Below are positions 7,869 through 15,207 of a stretch of DNA of 64,000 bases, piece by piece. The notes beneath the pieces are model-generated. The model saw nothing but the letters and a program-made list of their open reading frames with translations. It had not been told where the DNA came from and did no database searches. Every line of letters begins with the position of its first letter. The first letter of the stretch is position 1. Made by a program: the position numbers and the translations under genes. The DNA is from Desulfotignum sp. (GTDB lineage Bacteria; Desulfobacterota; Desulfobacteria; Desulfobacterales; Desulfobacteraceae), in NCBI GenBank assembly GCA_011389575.1, contig JAABUB010000005.1, forward strand, positions 1 through 64,000. Reading direction: 5' to 3'.

Positions 7869-8264
7869 TTATCTTTTTGAAAACTGGAAACTGGCTCTTG
7901 CGCCTTTTTTGCCGTATTTTTTACGCTCTTTCTGCCTGGAGTCCCGGGTCAAAAAACCGGCGCTTTTCAGCACGCCTCTCAGATCCGGATCCACTATTAC
8001 CAGTGCCTTGGACAAGCCCTGCCGGATGGCACCGGCCTGACCGGTCTGGCCGCCGCCCAACACCTTGATCCTGATATCAAAGGCATCATCCAGCTGTGTC
8101 AGAACAAGGGGAGAAGTCAATGCATCACGGTTCACACCGATATCAAAATAGTCATCCATTTCCCGGCTGTTCACCCTAATTTTACCGGTACCAGGGACAA
8201 GCCACACTTTGGCCACAGAATTTTTCCGTTTTCCTGTGGCGTAAAATACGTTTCCACTTTCCAT
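7869..8264 (-). CDS. rpsI: 30S ribosomal protein S9
   Basis: FYATGKRKNSVAKVWLVPGTGKI...GARASFQFSKR C-terminus. Confidence 0.98.
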   Translation of the reverse strand: MESGNVFYATGKRKNSVAKVWLVPGTGKIRVNSREMDDYFDIGVNRDALTSPLVLTQLDDAFDIRIKVLGGGQTGQAGAIRQGLSKALVIVDPDLRGVLKSAGFLTRDSRQKERKKYGKKGARASFQFSKR

Positions 8265-8288
8265 TGATATAATCGCGTCCTTTTTTCC

Positions 8289-8723
8289 TTAGATTTGTAC
8301 TGGTTCAGGCTTCTGGGCAGCATGCGGGTGCTGATCGCCTGCATATACAAACAGTTTTTTATTCAATTTTCTGCCAAGTCTGTTTTTGGGCAGCATCCCC
8401 TGAACCGCCTTTTTGATAACCTGCTCCGGTTTTTTCTCAAGTAATTGCCCGGCTGTTCGGGATTTAAGACTGCCCACATATCCGGAATGGCGGTAATAGG
8501 TTTTGTCATCCAGTTTGCTGCCTGTCAGGCGGATCTTATCCGCATTGATCACCACCACCCAGTCCCCCATATCCACATGGGGGGTAAACAAGGGGCTGTG
8601 CTTTCCCCGAATCCGGTAAGCCACCTGTGATGCAAGTCTTCCCAAAACCTGGTCTGTTGCGTCAATCACACACCAGTTCTCTTTGTTATCTGTTCTTTTG
8701 GCGCTGTACGTATATTTTTTCAT
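8289..8723 (-). CDS. rplM: 50S ribosomal protein L13
   Basis: MKKYTYSAKRTDNKENWCVIDATDQVLGRLAS...; start placed at 8723. Confidence 0.98.
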   Translation of the reverse strand: MKKYTYSAKRTDNKENWCVIDATDQVLGRLASQVAYRIRGKHSPLFTPHVDMGDWVVVINADKIRLTGSKLDDKTYYRHSGYVGSLKSRTAGQLLEKKPEQVIKKAVQGMLPKNRLGRKLNKKLFVYAGDQHPHAAQKPEPVQI

Positions 8724-8797
8724 GGTTCCCAATACTCCTGATTCATAAATACAATCCAAAACTTTTATACGCTATTGCAGTTCATGTCAAGCAAAAT

Positions 8798-9205
8798 CTA
8801 TAATTCAATGTGTTTTTCCGTCTTTAAATCAGCCAGAGAAGCAGTATCCCGGGAATTTTTCGTCATCCTGGAAGCATTCTTGCAGCTGACTTCCGCATTC
8901 AGGATACCGCCGTTTTCCACAATCAGGTCCTGGCATTCGACTTTACCGGCACAATTGCCGGTGCTCAAAATGATCAATTCTTTGGAGGCAGATAATTCTC
9001 CTGTGAAATTTCCCCCTATGGTAATGGAAGATACTGTGGTTGCACTGGAATTGACCTGCCCGTCCTTGGCAATGATAACCACATCTCCGTCAATGGTTCC
9101 TGTGACCTGGCCCCTGATAATAAGTTTTCCACTGCTGGATATGGACCCGTCAATCTTCAGTTCCTGGTCGATGATGGATAGATTTTTCAAATTTTTCTTT
9201 GCCAC
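8798..9205 (-). CDS. Bactofilin family cytoskeletal protein (CcmA-like)
   Basis: SIIDQELKIDGSISSSGKLIIRGQVTGTIDGDVVIIAKDGQVNSSATTVSSITIGGNFTGELSASKEL repetitive beta-helix pattern. Confidence 0.92.
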   Translation of the reverse strand: MAKKNLKNLSIIDQELKIDGSISSSGKLIIRGQVTGTIDGDVVIIAKDGQVNSSATTVSSITIGGNFTGELSASKELIILSTGNCAGKVECQDLIVENGGILNAEVSCKNASRMTKNSRDTASLADLKTEKHIEL

Positions 9206-9234
9206 TGCCCTTCTCCTTGCCTGCTTATAATTGC

Positions 9235-10725
9235 TTACAATTGCATATCAATATAGAGTTTGCCCACTTCCTTGTCCTCCAGTGTGGTAAGCACATGGTA
9301 ATGCCTGCCTTTTTTGTCCCTGGAATACCGGGGCATCAGCACCCCGTCAGCCCCTGTATCAATGGGGTATCCCCTGTCTTCCCCGGAATTAAAACTCTTG
9401 TTACCCACAAATCCTTTGAAATTCACCACATAGCTTGCAGGGTCCACAGGACTGTTCAACACATCTTCGATCACCAGAATATCGCCATGATCCAGGGTGA
9501 TACGGCTGTAATTGTCAACAAACTTTTGCTTTCCGTTAATCAGAAGTTTATACTGGAGGCCTGTTTTTTTTTCGGCACTGTCTGTTACTGCCAGACGGGT
9601 CGGCACATCTTTCCCTGGTTCATCTATATCCAGAAACACACTGCCGCAGGCATAAAAATCTTTTTTTGCTTCAATGCGGGTGGAAGCTTGGATCTGGATC
9701 TTTTTTTTCATGTCGTTGAAGTTGCTGCCCACCCCCAGAATATTCACGCTCAACCCCCGTTCATAATTGGCCACCACATCGAGCACCTGGACGGTATCAC
9801 CTTTGCGGATCTTGAGTCGCTGCATTTTTCCCACCACAACAGGAATGGAGTCATTTACCGATATGATCATATACTGCATCTGAGGTTTTTTCAGATCGAT
9901 TCCCGGGGTCTCGGGAATAATATCCAGGACCGCCATATACCCGTTGATGGCATCAATCATCTGGCGGACCTTCTGCTCCAGGGGAAGGGACTTTGCCGAT
10001 TCAATGCCAAAGGCCGGTATCCTGCAGATATCTGCGGCATAAAAAGTGGCGGAACGGCGCTGCTCCTTATGCCGGGTATCAGCCTGGCCGGTTCTGTGGT
10101 TGTTGAAATGAAAATGGTAAAACGGATCGTCAATGTTCTGGTTGATTTTTTCGATCACTGTCCCTGCCATGGCTGCCAGGTCCACCGGGGTACCTCCTTT
10201 GGCCGGATCCAGAAAATTATTGTCGGCAATAATGGACTGCCCGTATCTCTGGGGATTTTTCATTTGGCTTTCCCAGACAGGCGAATATATGCCTGATCCT
10301 TCATGGAGATTCAAAAAGCAGTCGCTCTCACAGATCAGTTTTTTCAACACATGCACCACCCGGGTTTCATAATTTACCACATGGTCATCTGAAAACTTTC
10401 TGTTCATATCCTGGTTGATCTGTCTTTCCCTTTTAAGAATGGAAGGAAAATTGGCCCTGGGCACCACGATGAGATTTCCCGTTTTCAAGGAAAAATCAAC
10501 ATAGGAATCAGCAGCCAGAAACCCGCAGGGTTCATCTCCCTGTATTCCACCGATGATCAGCAGCGTTTTCCCGGGCTTTGATCCTGAAATCCGGTATACG
10601 TGCAGTTCATTTTCCTGCCCCTCAAAATACACCGTGTGGGTCCGCCGGCCCGCCTGGGCCGGCTGGCAGACAAAAGCTGCCGCCACTGCCAGGATGAAAA
10701 CTGTTTTTGATACAAAGGGTATCAT
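9235..10725 (-). CDS. M99-family (Csd4-like) carboxypeptidase, secreted
   Basis: Signal peptide; GGIQGDEPCGFLAA (QxxE zinc motif), later FLNLHEGSGIYSP (His ligand); C-terminal beta domains. Confidence 0.85.
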   Translation of the reverse strand: MIPFVSKTVFILAVAAAFVCQPAQAGRRTHTVYFEGQENELHVYRISGSKPGKTLLIIGGIQGDEPCGFLAADSYVDFSLKTGNLIVVPRANFPSILKRERQINQDMNRKFSDDHVVNYETRVVHVLKKLICESDCFLNLHEGSGIYSPVWESQMKNPQRYGQSIIADNNFLDPAKGGTPVDLAAMAGTVIEKINQNIDDPFYHFHFNNHRTGQADTRHKEQRRSATFYAADICRIPAFGIESAKSLPLEQKVRQMIDAINGYMAVLDIIPETPGIDLKKPQMQYMIISVNDSIPVVVGKMQRLKIRKGDTVQVLDVVANYERGLSVNILGVGSNFNDMKKKIQIQASTRIEAKKDFYACGSVFLDIDEPGKDVPTRLAVTDSAEKKTGLQYKLLINGKQKFVDNYSRITLDHGDILVIEDVLNSPVDPASYVVNFKGFVGNKSFNSGEDRGYPIDTGADGVLMPRYSRDKKGRHYHVLTTLEDKEVGKLYIDMQL

Positions 10726-11669
10726 CCCAGATCTTCCTCTCCAATATCAATATCGCTTTTAAACATCAATTCTCCCTGTTCATTGAAAATAATAATTGAT
10801 GCAGTAGTGAAAAAAGCCTGGCCAGGAATATTTTTTATCCTGAACTTCACCGGTTTGAAATGGGCAATGGAAAAATACTGGCCTTTTTTTGCTTGGGATG
10901 GTATGCCGTTATCCAAAGGAGAGCTGGGAACCACCAGCCACTGCTCTGTATCTTTTTTTGTGGACCGGCTTTCCGGTTTAAGAATGGTAAAAATACGGCC
11001 GGACACCTCGCCCGGCTTTTCTGACACATTCCGGATATCAAAACGGACCAGCAGGTCCCCCTGGTCCCGATCCCTGGTTACGGAAAATTTTTCAATATCC
11101 ACCTTTCCCGCCTCTTTGGCCACAAGGGGAATTTCAGGATCTTCCTGCTGGAGTGTACCTGATGGTTCTTCCTGCGGAATGCCGGCATCTGCATCTGCAT
11201 CTGTGTCTGACATATCTTTTGTATCCTCAGTGCTTTGTGCCTGGATATGGGATTCCTCCTGTTCTTCTTTATTCTTTTTTTCCCCGCTATCCGTACCAGA
11301 ATCCGCTGAAACCGGGTCTGATACGTCTGATGCTAAATCCGGGTCCTGGCCTGACATGACCAGGCGTGCCATCAGGGTTTCTTTGTCACGGGTCAACGCT
11401 GCCACCCGGCTTTCCAGGGCTGCTGTCGTGGATGCCAGTTGTTTGTTTTCTCTGGACAGCTGGTCAAAAAAAGTGAAAAGCACCCCGGCTGCCGCCAGAC
11501 AGACCAGTGTTGTGCACAGCAGCAGAACCACAAGATATTTCAGGTACCCACCAGGCTTTACCCCGCCCATTTCATCCACGATGAGCACGCGTTTGTTTTT
11601 GCTTTTTTTATGGGGAGATGGTTTTGATCGGGCTATTTCTCTTTCCAGTTCTCTCGAAATATCTTCCAT
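10722..11669 (-). CDS. Uncharacterised bitopic membrane protein with coiled coil, acidic linker and C-terminal periplasmic domain
   Basis: Basic cytoplasmic N-terminus, TM YLKYLVVLLLCTTLVCLAAAGVLFTFF, coiled coil FDQLSRENKQLASTTAALESRVAALTRDKETL, acidic linker, C-terminal KFSVTRDRDQGDLLVRFDIRNVSEKPGEVSGRIF... Confidence 0.8.
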   Translation of the reverse strand: MEDISRELEREIARSKPSPHKKSKNKRVLIVDEMGGVKPGGYLKYLVVLLLCTTLVCLAAAGVLFTFFDQLSRENKQLASTTAALESRVAALTRDKETLMARLVMSGQDPDLASDVSDPVSADSGTDSGEKKNKEEQEESHIQAQSTEDTKDMSDTDADADAGIPQEEPSGTLQQEDPEIPLVAKEAGKVDIEKFSVTRDRDQGDLLVRFDIRNVSEKPGEVSGRIFTILKPESRSTKKDTEQWLVVPSSPLDNGIPSQAKKGQYFSIAHFKPVKFRIKNIPGQAFFTTASIIIFNEQGELMFKSDIDIGEEDLG

Positions 11670-12997
11670 AACCCATCCTTTTTAACAAGTGTCAACTGTT
11701 TTATGCCAGTGGTTGAAAATCCGCTGGATTCATAGGTTTGAAAAAACCGTATCTCCAGACCGTTTTTATTTTTAATAATTTTGAAATCTCTGCCTGTCAC
11801 CTTGATATAGCTGTACTTACCGGAAAGCTGTTTTTTACGGTTCACCCACCGGGTTTTATTCATGCCGTCGCTATAAAATCCGGGGGCATAAAACGCGGCA
11901 TAAGCATCCATGTCTTCGGCTGACCAGGCAGCCAGCCACTGGTCTACCATTTCCAGGGCAGAGGCGTGGTCATGCCCGGGTTCTTTTTTAGCGAGGGATG
12001 TGTGCAGCACGGAAGCCCCCGCCACCAGAGGCTCCGAACTTTTTTCATGGGGTTTTTCCAGTACCTGGAAGGTATCTCCTGTGATCTGCAGTTCAGGGTC
12101 GTTCCCTTTTTGGATAAACAGCTTGCGTTTGCCCAGAAACTGCCGGGCATCCTTGCCTACAAGCCCAAAATCCATCAGCACCACCACCATGTCCTGATGC
12201 TGGTAAATCCCCATGTCAGATATCTGGATATGGATATTTTCTGCAGGACTTTCAGTTGTTTTTCGCAGTTTTACCCAGGATTCCCACCAGGATATGTCCG
12301 GCAGATAACCGGGGCTGTAAAACGACAGATATTCATGATAACTGCCGGTGATGTGGGCCTGTATCCAGTTATTCACAAAAGACAGAATCCGGTCTTTTGT
12401 CTGCTGCTGTTCTTCGAAGGTCATATAGGCAATTTTTTCCACAATAAGCAGCGGGGTGGCATGCAAAGTGATATAATCGGAAAGCATCAGCACATCCTCA
12501 TTTTCAACAGCAATGCATCCGTTGGTATCCATGGATTTCAATGCTTTGTCCGTGCCGTGTATCCAGATGGCGGATCCGTTTTTGCCCTGGCGGAGATCCA
12601 TAAAATTGGGATAGTCAATGGGAAAGGCCCGTTTTCCGTAGATGGGTGTCAGGTATCTGTCTTCATATTCATCAATGAGAAAATAAATGCCTTCCGGTGT
12701 TTTTTTATCCCCGGCCTGTTTTTTGGGGCCGAACACCTCACCTGTGGAACAGGCGGTTTCAAATATCTGTTTCAGCATCCCGGCTTCCGGGTCTGCCCTG
12801 TAAATATAAAATTTCTGGGTCTGTTTTTCCACCAGAATGGCGTTTTCATTTTCCGGCAGGGCAATGATGGCAGCCGGAACAGACCCGGCAGATACCAGAG
12901 ACGGAAAAAAAACCAAAAACCATACCGCTGTCAACACTGCTGCCGACACAACCGCCAACCATCTGCATGTCTTTACATACGCTTTCATGGGCAACAC
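11633..12997 (-). CDS. Secreted L,D-transpeptidase-fold (YkuD/YafK, Csd6-like) protein with C-terminal NTF2/SnoaL-like repeats
   Basis: IWIHGTDKALKSMDTNGCIAVENEDVLMLSDYI (His...xNGC motif); two DxYxxFYxPGF repeats (HEYLSFYSPGYLPD; DAYAAFYAPGFYSDG). Confidence 0.85.
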   Translation of the reverse strand: MLPMKAYVKTCRWLAVVSAAVLTAVWFLVFFPSLVSAGSVPAAIIALPENENAILVEKQTQKFYIYRADPEAGMLKQIFETACSTGEVFGPKKQAGDKKTPEGIYFLIDEYEDRYLTPIYGKRAFPIDYPNFMDLRQGKNGSAIWIHGTDKALKSMDTNGCIAVENEDVLMLSDYITLHATPLLIVEKIAYMTFEEQQQTKDRILSFVNNWIQAHITGSYHEYLSFYSPGYLPDISWWESWVKLRKTTESPAENIHIQISDMGIYQHQDMVVVLMDFGLVGKDARQFLGKRKLFIQKGNDPELQITGDTFQVLEKPHEKSSEPLVAGASVLHTSLAKKEPGHDHASALEMVDQWLAAWSAEDMDAYAAFYAPGFYSDGMNKTRWVNRKKQLSGKYSYIKVTGRDFKIIKNKNGLEIRFFQTYESSGFSTTGIKQLTLVKKDGLWKIFRENWKEK

Positions 12998-13029: not shown

Positions 13030-14061
13030 TCATTCTGAAGGGATCAGGTTAAGGTGTCTGTACGCTGTATCAGCGGCTTTTCTGCCGCTGGAGGTACGCA
13101 AAACAAGTCCGGTTTTCAACAAAAACGGTTCCACCACATCCACCAGGGTATCGGTTTCCTCCTGCAGGGTCGCAGCAATGGCCTCAATCCCCACAGGACC
13201 GCCTTTGTAAAAATCAATAATGGTGGTAAGATAATTTCTGTCCAGCCGGGTGAGTCCCAGGCGGTCAATCCCTTCAAGGGCAAGAGCAGCCTGGACAGTG
13301 TCTTTGGTCACCCGGCCGTCGGATCTGACCTGGGAAAAATCTCTTACCCGCTTGAGCAGGCGGTTGGCGATTCTCGGGGTCCCCCTGGACCGCCGGGCCA
13401 GGGCCAGGGCACCATCTTCTGAAATCCGGGTTTCCAGCAGCTGTGCCGACCGTCTGATAATAACCACCAGCTCTTCAATGGCGTAAAAATCCAGGGTCCT
13501 GAAAAGACCGAACCGGTCCCGCAGCGGAGACGACAACAGCCCTACCCGGGTGGTGGCCCCCACCAGCACAAATCTGCGCAGCCTATACCGGTGGCTTCTG
13601 GCATGGATTCCCTTGTCAAACACAAAATCCACGGCAAAGTCTTCCATGGCCGGGTATAAAAACTCTTCCACCACCTTGGGGATCCGGTGGATTTCATCAA
13701 TGAACAAAAATTCTCCGTCCGACAGATTGGTTAATATACCCATGAGATCCCCCCCCTTTTCAAGGGTGGGGCCGGAGGTAACGGTCAGTTCCTTTCCCAT
13801 TTCATTGGCAATGATATGACAGATGGTGGTCTTGCCCAGGCCGGGGGGACCATGGAGCAGGATATGCTCCAATGGTTCGTTTCGCAGCCGGGCTGCCTGG
13901 ATGGCGATCTTCAGGGTTTCCACTGTATCGGTCTGACCCACATAATCTTCAAACCGCACCGGCCGCAGAGAAACCATGTCCGGCATCTTGTCTTCCGGGG
14001 TGGCGGCCGGGCTCACCACCCCTTTTGTATCTGAAGAAAAAGACAGGATATCATCTGCCAT
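13030..14061 (-). CDS. ruvB: Holliday junction branch migration helicase RuvB
   Basis: [31 protein letters not shown]. Confidence 0.98.
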
Positions 14062-14063
14062 GT

Positions 14064-14693
14064 TTACAAACCTTCCTGATAAATGGCATCGAGCAGATTT
14101 TCCGGGGTATGAATTTCCGGATTTTTCTCAAAGGCAGCCTGTATCATGCGCCGGGCAGAGGCTGAAGAATGCCCCAGCTGATCCACCAGCACACCTGTCA
14201 CCTGAAGAGCGATCTCCTGTTTATCCGGACCCAGGGACACGGCCTGATCACAGGCACTGCCGGCAGAAACCTCCATGAATGCCATGGTTTTTCCATGCAA
14301 AGTGGCAATGATCTTTTCTGCGGTGCGTTTGCCGATGCCCGGCAGCTGTCCCAGAAAAGTTGCATCTTTTTGTTCAATGGCCCGGGCGATTTCCCCCACA
14401 GGCCGAACCAGCGCCTTTATCGCTTTCATGGGCCCGATGGCAGCCACGGAGATGAACAACTGGAAAAACGCCTTGTCCTCCATGGATGCAAACCCGATCA
14501 GTACCGGTTTGGGCTGTCTTTCACTCACATGGTAATAAACATAAAGACTGACAATGTCATCAGTGCCGGAGCCGTCGGTTACCTGCTCCATAATAAAGGA
14601 ATTCACCAGCACCTCATAGCCCACACCACCGGCAAGCAGCAGAACAGCATCTGTTTCACAATGGATGATATGTCCCTCAAGATATCCGATCAT
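14064..14693 (-). CDS. ruvA: Holliday junction branch migration protein RuvA
   Basis: [30 protein letters not shown]...[13 protein letters not shown]; start placed at 14693 within the longer ORF. Confidence 0.95.
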
Positions 14694-15174
14694 GGTTTTT
14701 CCTGTGCCTGTAATATCCGGTAATGGCCAGTGCCAGCGCATCTGATGCATGAAAAGGACGGATAGGTTCCGGATGGTGCAGCAGGTGCCGCACCCCCCGC
14801 TCCATCTGGATTTTGTCTGCATTTCCGTTTCCACAGATGATTTTTTTGGCCTCTCGTACAGCAATTTCCTCAACCCGTATGCCGGCCTTGCATGCCGCAA
14901 CCTGCAAAACCCCCGACACTTTGCCCAGCATAATACCGGATTGCGGATATTTTTCAAGGGAGTATATATCCTCGATAACCACAAAATCAGGAACCTGTTC
15001 TGTGAGAAAGTCATATATCCGTGTATAGATGGTGGTGAGGCGGAAAGGTGTGCTCTGGTCAGACCTGGTTGCCACACTGCCGAATGAATACCTGATGACC
15101 CTGACAGGATCACCTTCCAGGACCCCTATTCCTGTACCGGCAAGACCAGGGTCGATACCAACAATCTTTATCAT
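14677..15174 (-). CDS. ruvC: Crossover junction endodeoxyribonuclease RuvC
   Basis: MIKIVGIDPGLAGTGIGVLEGD...FVVIEDIYS...HASDALALAI. Confidence 0.97.
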   Translation of the reverse strand: MIKIVGIDPGLAGTGIGVLEGDPVRVIRYSFGSVATRSDQSTPFRLTTIYTRIYDFLTEQVPDFVVIEDIYSLEKYPQSGIMLGKVSGVLQVAACKAGIRVEEIAVREAKKIICGNGNADKIQMERGVRHLLHHPEPIRPFHASDALALAITGYYRHRKNHDRIS

Positions 15175-15207
15175 TTTTTTTTGCAGGACCTGATGATTTT
15201 GCAAAAA

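Follow-up and report, generated by a model that had tools for sequence, protein, structure and literature searches.

What places peptidoglycan-trimming enzymes on one side of a bacterial cell? The matter is unsettled in Helicobacter, Campylobacter and Bdellovibrio, and of the Bdellovibrio enzyme Bd1075 it is known that the NTF2 domain is required. The question is raised by four consecutive minus-strand genes, at 8798-12988, in a stretch of 64,000 nucleotides of DNA from Desulfotignum sp., a sulfate reducer of the Desulfobacteraceae (assembly GCA_011389575.1, contig JAABUB010000005.1, positions 1 to 64,000), here called the window. Head to tail, they encode a YkuD-fold enzyme with NTF2-like domains (ldt), a membrane protein (mid), an M99 peptidase (m99) and a bactofilin. 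A sequence-only reading of the window had described them as a tightly packed, Helicobacter-type cell-shape module, with the gene between the csd6-like and csd4-like genes as a new component. We lean towards the view that the operon is a bactofilin-linked peptidoglycan-trimming cell-shape module in which mid acts as the tether. This view is carried by family membership, catalytic residues, gene order, the predicted topology of mid, fusions of ldt to mid, and a family-level likeness of the mid hairpin to that of the bactofilin-linked peptidase LmdC. From these we infer that mid binds both bactofilin and the enzymes, and that the unit affects shape.

The four genes form a recurrent unit

The open reading frames and their translations bore out the packing: ldt and mid overlap by 37 bp and mid and m99 by 4 bp (ATGA), 29 bp separate m99 from bactofilin, and the GTG start of the latter is preceded by a good Shine-Dalgarno sequence. 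For ldt, which starts at the ATG at 12988, a GTG at 12997 is a possible alternative. Measured against relatives, all four genes are under purifying selection (dN/dS 0.09-0.32). The unit was followed in two samples: 395 Desulfobacterota genomes, of which 51 carry the cassette and 344 do not, and the 80 M99 loci closest to the window's own (L-numbers below denote relative loci). The two nearest of these M99 loci are 90% identical and both come from Desulfotignum metagenome-assembled genomes. Of these 80 loci, 50 have ldt-mid-m99-bactofilin in unbroken order; five more have one gene split or fused, and many others are cut by contig ends. The order is thus not unique to the window genome but recurs in dozens of others and, since the genes are also under purifying selection, the set is not a product of chance. 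Across the phylum sample, M99 was found in 73 of the 395 genomes and ldt-mid-m99 in a row in 41, to which three with ldt fused to mid can be added (44). The genes flanking this trio differ completely between lineages, in several unrelated genomic contexts, which argues that the trio stays together in its own right.

Predicted architecture of mid and the likeness of its family to LmdC

When 47 members of the mid family were scanned singly, no Pfam or NCBIfam match was found beyond transmembrane and coil noise, and PDB sequences gave the same result; the gene between the two enzymes is, as had been proposed, an uncharacterised component without a named family. An AlphaFold2 model built with 86 relatives predicts, on the cytoplasmic side, a short beta-hairpin with strands at residues 29-31 and 37-39 (mean predicted local distance difference test (pLDDT) 82-90), one long helix that spans the membrane and then becomes a coil (pLDDT >90 along most of its length), a disordered acidic linker and a well-predicted C-terminal domain. 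In an earlier model with 47 sequences, only isolated strand residues were seen at the hairpin, which was resolved with 86. The segment preceding the transmembrane helix is a conserved cytoplasmic element of the family. The C-terminal part is predicted to be an immunoglobulin (Ig)/FnIII-like sandwich, and no M23 match was found in mid, which is therefore not an LmdC. A Foldseek search with the first model returned generic Ig/FnIII-like beta-sandwich matches in glycosidases and factor XIII; as a pointer to function these were dropped as generic and uninformative.

In LmdC, a bitopic M23 peptidase, a conserved cytoplasmic beta-hairpin is required for bactofilin recruitment (PMC10945521). Aligned by hhalign with the N-termini of LmdC-type M23 proteins, the mid family gave 95% probability across the hairpin and the transmembrane helix. 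The transmembrane part alone gave 3%, the real score was never reached when the columns of the cytoplasmic part were shuffled 150 times, and control comparisons of mid with the signal-peptide regions of M99 and ldt proteins gave 18-23%. Like LmdC in the LmdC-BacA systems of Hyphomonas neptunium and Rhodospirillum rubrum, mid is linked to a bactofilin and, at the level of its family, is predicted to be bitopic, with a short cytoplasmic beta-hairpin, a transmembrane helix and a coiled coil (PMC10945521); unlike LmdC, which has an M23 endopeptidase domain, it carries a non-enzymatic Ig-like domain and stands beside separate carboxypeptidases. By description it also resembles the Csd5/Csd7/CcmA complex of H. 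pylori, in which non-enzymatic transmembrane proteins accompany bactofilin and wall enzymes (PMC9507126), although the linked enzyme there is the M23 peptidase Csd1. We tentatively propose that mid defines a previously undescribed adaptor family without enzymatic activity, widespread in Desulfobacterota, which would use an LmdC-type hairpin to couple bactofilin to carboxypeptidases rather than endopeptidases.

Three relatives have an LmdC-like M23 gene inside the cassette: in L042 and L086 it lies between m99 and bactofilin, in L050 between mid and bactofilin. In these loci a single operon combines the two types of bactofilin-hydrolase module already known.

A tether to bactofilin or a scaffold for the enzymes

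We think that mid probably ties the enzymes and the filament together. It might instead serve the two periplasmic enzymes alone, as a scaffold or regulator in the membrane, in which case bactofilin, merely co-expressed, would work through an LmdC-type M23 peptidase elsewhere, and the hairpin would bind something else in the cytoplasm, such as an elongasome protein. We regard this as rather unlikely, yet it draws on several observations. The window genome encodes its own LmdC-like M23 peptidase (P0005), on another contig. The trio ldt-mid-m99 is more constant than the adjacent bactofilin. Fusions involve an enzyme and not bactofilin: the C-terminal Ig-like domain of mid is fused to ldt in three relatives (L044, L090 and L091), which ties mid to the enzyme side.

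Other observations weigh directly against a general tether. The fused chains begin with a signal peptide and have no hairpin before the Ig-like domain, so the tether is no universal requirement. In the phylum sample, bactofilin is missing next to over half of the cassettes, and in L060, L067, L084, L087 and L088 ldt-m99 occurs but mid was not detected. The window clade alone (23 sequences) gave an hhalign probability of 6.7% against LmdC, with no direct match of its hairpin, and 97% against the mid family; judged by these alignments, the hairpin sequence has drifted in the window clade, and the link to LmdC runs through the rest of the family. Finally, the contrast in bactofilin occurrence (50 of the 51 cassette-bearing genomes, 195 of the 344 others) speaks for the tether, but its p value (1.5e-10, kinship ignored) overstates the support because the genomes are phylogenetically non-independent.

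Against a scaffold-only role stand that near-constant presence of bactofilin, the resemblance to the LmdC hairpin seen across the wider mid family, and the fact that in most of the 80 nearest loci the unit ends with bactofilin. Moreover, mid adjoins bactofilin in four loci that have no M99 (L036, L039, L040 and L041). In L039 and L040 ldt, mid and bactofilin are all present, and L041 has mid and bactofilin, which suggests that this pair can accompany the LD-carboxypeptidase alone. The tether between bactofilin and the carboxypeptidases is thus the reading that we retain.

Variant arrangements were also seen. L091 keeps a separate mid gene besides the fusion, and in the loci with the fusion bactofilin lies upstream rather than downstream. 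In L189 (6947-9133), from a metagenome-assembled genome of the Olavius algarvensis Delta 4 endosymbiont, M99 and bactofilin form one 729-amino-acid open frame with no stop between them. This is at odds with the expected sites, the periplasm for one product and the cytoplasm for the other; possible explanations are the loss of a stop codon, an error in the assembly or a GTG start inside the frame.

A possible role in cell shape

In the scheme that we favour, bactofilin would polymerise beneath the inner membrane, and mid would cross that membrane and dock its short cytoplasmic hairpin onto the polymer, its periplasmic coiled coil and Ig-like domain keeping the secreted enzymes close by. The YkuD/NTF2 enzyme, as an LD-carboxypeptidase, would take the terminal D-Ala off tetrapeptides, and the M99 enzyme, as a DL-carboxypeptidase, would then convert the resulting tripeptides to dipeptides; for the window enzymes, both reactions and their order are taken from characterised relatives, Pgp2 followed by Pgp1 (PMC3961634). 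Trimming confined to the bactofilin-marked patch would bias wall growth locally and so set curvature or width.

An unlikely alternative is that the module serves peptidoglycan turnover, envelope maintenance or width control with no specific role in curvature, the link to shape stemming only from the best-studied relatives. It is indeed solely by analogy that curvature is attributed to the window organism, Pgp2-type proteins are not confined to curved bacteria (PMC3961634), and many cassette carriers are uncultured; for Desulfospira joergensenii, Desulfotignum and Desulfosudis oleivorans, the literature searched held no usable description of cell shape. Against a pure turnover function, cells become straight or rod-shaped when Csd6, Pgp2, Bd1075, Csd4 or Pgp1 is deleted (PMC3844677, PMC3961634, PMC8938487, PMC3310797, PMC3310789), close Csd4 homologues have been reported from curved or helical organisms only (PMC3310797), and bactofilins that are coupled to wall hydrolases determine curvature locally (PMC10945521). 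These relatives suggest a role in curvature for the window unit also.

A peptidoglycan-trimming module outside Epsilonproteobacteria is supported, but it is less new than the sequence-only reading implied. Csd4 homologues have been reported in Delta/Epsilonproteobacteria (PMC3310797), Pgp1 occurs mainly in helical and vibrioid bacteria (PMC3310789), pgp1 and pgp2 homologues are neighbours in a few genomes, including one delta-proteobacterium (PMC3961634), and both a curvature LD-carboxypeptidase in Bdellovibrio (PMC8938487) and bactofilin-LmdC modules (PMC10945521) are known. In H. pylori, csd6 (HP0518), csd4 (HP1075) and ccmA (HP1542) lie apart, whereas their window counterparts share one unit. 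Already known, then, were the enzymes, the fact that they are paired and their occurrence in delta-proteobacteria, and the mid adaptor and the four-gene unit appear undescribed; no description of either was found in the literature searched, whose coverage left out most subscription journals and preprints.

Both enzymes match peptidoglycan carboxypeptidases

Profile searches, which had been set as a check on the family assignments, placed the bactofilin, M99 and YkuD/NTF2 proteins in the expected Pfam and PDB families, and the predicted wall-trimming chemistry of both enzymes is well supported by their homology. Searches of the window genome, which is 83% complete, found only one YkuD protein, one M99 gene and one bactofilin (Pfam PF04519, 8.5e-19, residues 10-106).

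The ldt product combines a YkuD catalytic domain (Pfam, 3.3e-17) with two NTF2-like domains, one of them C-terminal, and has the catalytic His and Cys. Its best PDB match was Bd1075 (7o21, 1.3e-43), followed at a distance by Csd6 (4xzz, 5.6e-18) and Pgp2 (6xj7, 6.1e-18). On these profile matches its nearest solved relative is the Bdellovibrio curvature enzyme and not Helicobacter Csd6, so the label 'Helicobacter-type' was too narrow. LD-carboxypeptidase activity has been shown by experiment for Bd1075, Csd6 and Pgp2, all of them cell-shape determinants (PMC8938487, PMC4599014, PMC3961634). Bd1075 (PDB 7O21), which makes vibrioid curvature, is likewise a YkuD LD-carboxypeptidase whose NTF2 domain ends in a pocket Trp (PMC8938487), and the second NTF2-like domain of ldt closes with this same Trp; Bd1075 is monocistronic with one NTF2 domain, whereas ldt has two and shares its operon with the other three genes. 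Csd6 of H. pylori and Pgp2 of C. jejuni share the LD-carboxypeptidase fold, the D-Ala-pocket residues and an NTF2-like domain, but are more distant, and their N-terminal dimerisation domain fell outside the alignment with ldt.

The catalytic motif of ldt reads TNGC. The sequence-only reading had set this against the usual xHGC, which holds for generic YkuD proteins but is no peculiarity here: Csd6 has KGC, Bd1075 has RGC, and cassette relatives mostly have NGC, KGC, QGC or RGC. NGC as a mark of altered chemistry was accordingly rejected, K, R, N or Q before GC being the family norm.

The YkuD fold itself would also suit a DpaA/YafK-type amidase or a true transpeptidase making 3-3 cross-links or lipoprotein attachments, but this is quite improbable in view of the NTF2 domains and of the best PDB matches, all LD-carboxypeptidases. 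The Tyr and Trp of the D-Ala pocket separate LD-carboxypeptidases from the amidase DpaA, which has Met in place of Trp (PMC10653827); ldt retains both upstream of NGC (Y117 and W142, equivalent to Csd6 Y133 and W158). The Arg at Cys+2 usual in transpeptidases (PMC8938487) is replaced by Ala (A160), as in Csd6 and Pgp2. In addition, the tripeptide product is the expected substrate of the linked M99 enzyme, following the Pgp2-Pgp1 order (PMC3961634).

The m99 product scored 138.2 bits against Peptidase_M99 (curated cut-off 27) and matched Csd4 across the catalytic domain. It reads GGIQGDEP, of which IQGDEP is identical to the Csd4 metal motif. QxxE in place of HxxE had been named as a Csd4 hallmark, and correctly so, as QxxE...H is strictly conserved among Csd4 homologues (PMC4220969). 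The metal ligands Q62, E65 and H141 correspond to Gln46, Glu49 and His128 of Csd4, the substrate arginines R101 and R109 to Arg86 and Arg94, and the catalytic E242 to Glu222 (roles from PMC4220969 and PMC3310797); all six were invariant in 20 of 20 diverse cassette M99s. Besides these shared residues, m99 differs from Csd4/Pgp1 in belonging to a gene unit with ldt and bactofilin, and many relatives of the window protein have a longer C-terminal part. M99 relatives with HxxE for QxxE were seen in L060 (5153-6496) and L088 (5595-6482), where ldt is present and mid was not detected; L088 has two ldt copies, one with Ser replacing the catalytic Cys.

Layout of the locus

That the genes are neighbours simply through common inheritance of gene order, with no meaning for function, is very improbable and largely refuted: close relatives of the window do share wider synteny (ruvC-ruvA-ruvB upstream), but ldt-mid-m99 persists while its flanks change completely between lineages, and its genes overlap and fuse.

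In the window the cassette is flanked, on the minus strand, by ruvC-ruvA-ruvB (13030-15204) and rplM-rpsI (7869-8759), named from their translations. No convincing terminator lies between the cassette and either flank, and a terminator-like stem follows rpsI at 7848-7816. A promoter scan gave 10 predictions against 10.2 in shuffles and a terminator scan 16 against 11.5, slightly above; counts this near to shuffles gave no ground for dividing the unit. An inverted-repeat search returned nothing notable. Coordinates are collected in Table 1.

Table 1. Features of the cassette (window positions) and LmdC-like genes in related loci
Feature	Position	Strand	Description	Basis
ldt	11633..12988	-	secreted YkuD-fold LD-carboxypeptidase (predicted), Csd6/Pgp2/Bd1075 family, two NTF2-like domains, 451 amino acids	Pfam and PDB matches
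ldt catalytic motif	12515..12523	-	NGC; C158 catalytic, A160 at Cys+2	alignment; roles PMC10653827, PMC8938487
ldt first NTF2-like domain	12155..12388	-	residues 201-278	SnoaL_3 1.5e-5; aligns to Csd6/Pgp2 NTF2 region
ldt second NTF2-like domain	11648..11956	-	residues 345-447	Cds6_C 5.1e-23; second aligned stretch with 7o21
mid	10722..11669	-	bitopic membrane protein, no named family, 315 amino acids	conserved between ldt and m99
mid cytoplasmic beta-hairpin	11553..11585	-	residues 29-39, directly before transmembrane helix	predicted model and family motif
mid transmembrane helix continuing into coiled coil	11355..11549	-	residues 41-105	predicted model
mid periplasmic Ig/FnIII-like beta-sandwich	10746..11102	-	residues 190-308	predicted model, structure search
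m99	9235..10725	-	secreted M99 DL-carboxypeptidase (predicted), Csd4/Pgp1 family, 496 amino acids	Pfam 4.6e-40; Csd4 4q6m 2.6e-34
m99 metal-binding motif	10531..10542	-	QxxE (Q62, E65)	alignment to Csd4
bactofilin	8798..9205	-	135 amino acids, GTG start	Pfam
LmdC-like M23 gene	L042:2703-3560, L050:3306-4160, L086:6869-7723		directly upstream of bactofilin	

Significance

An operon in which a bactofilin and a partner that spans the membrane accompany both trimming enzymes suggests, for one phylum, a concrete and testable way in which trimming is placed. Mid belongs to a protein family that neither Pfam nor NCBIfam contains, and loss of mid should uncouple trimming from the cytoskeleton. If mid is such an adaptor, it would represent a second, general way for the bactofilin cytoskeleton to position wall trimming.

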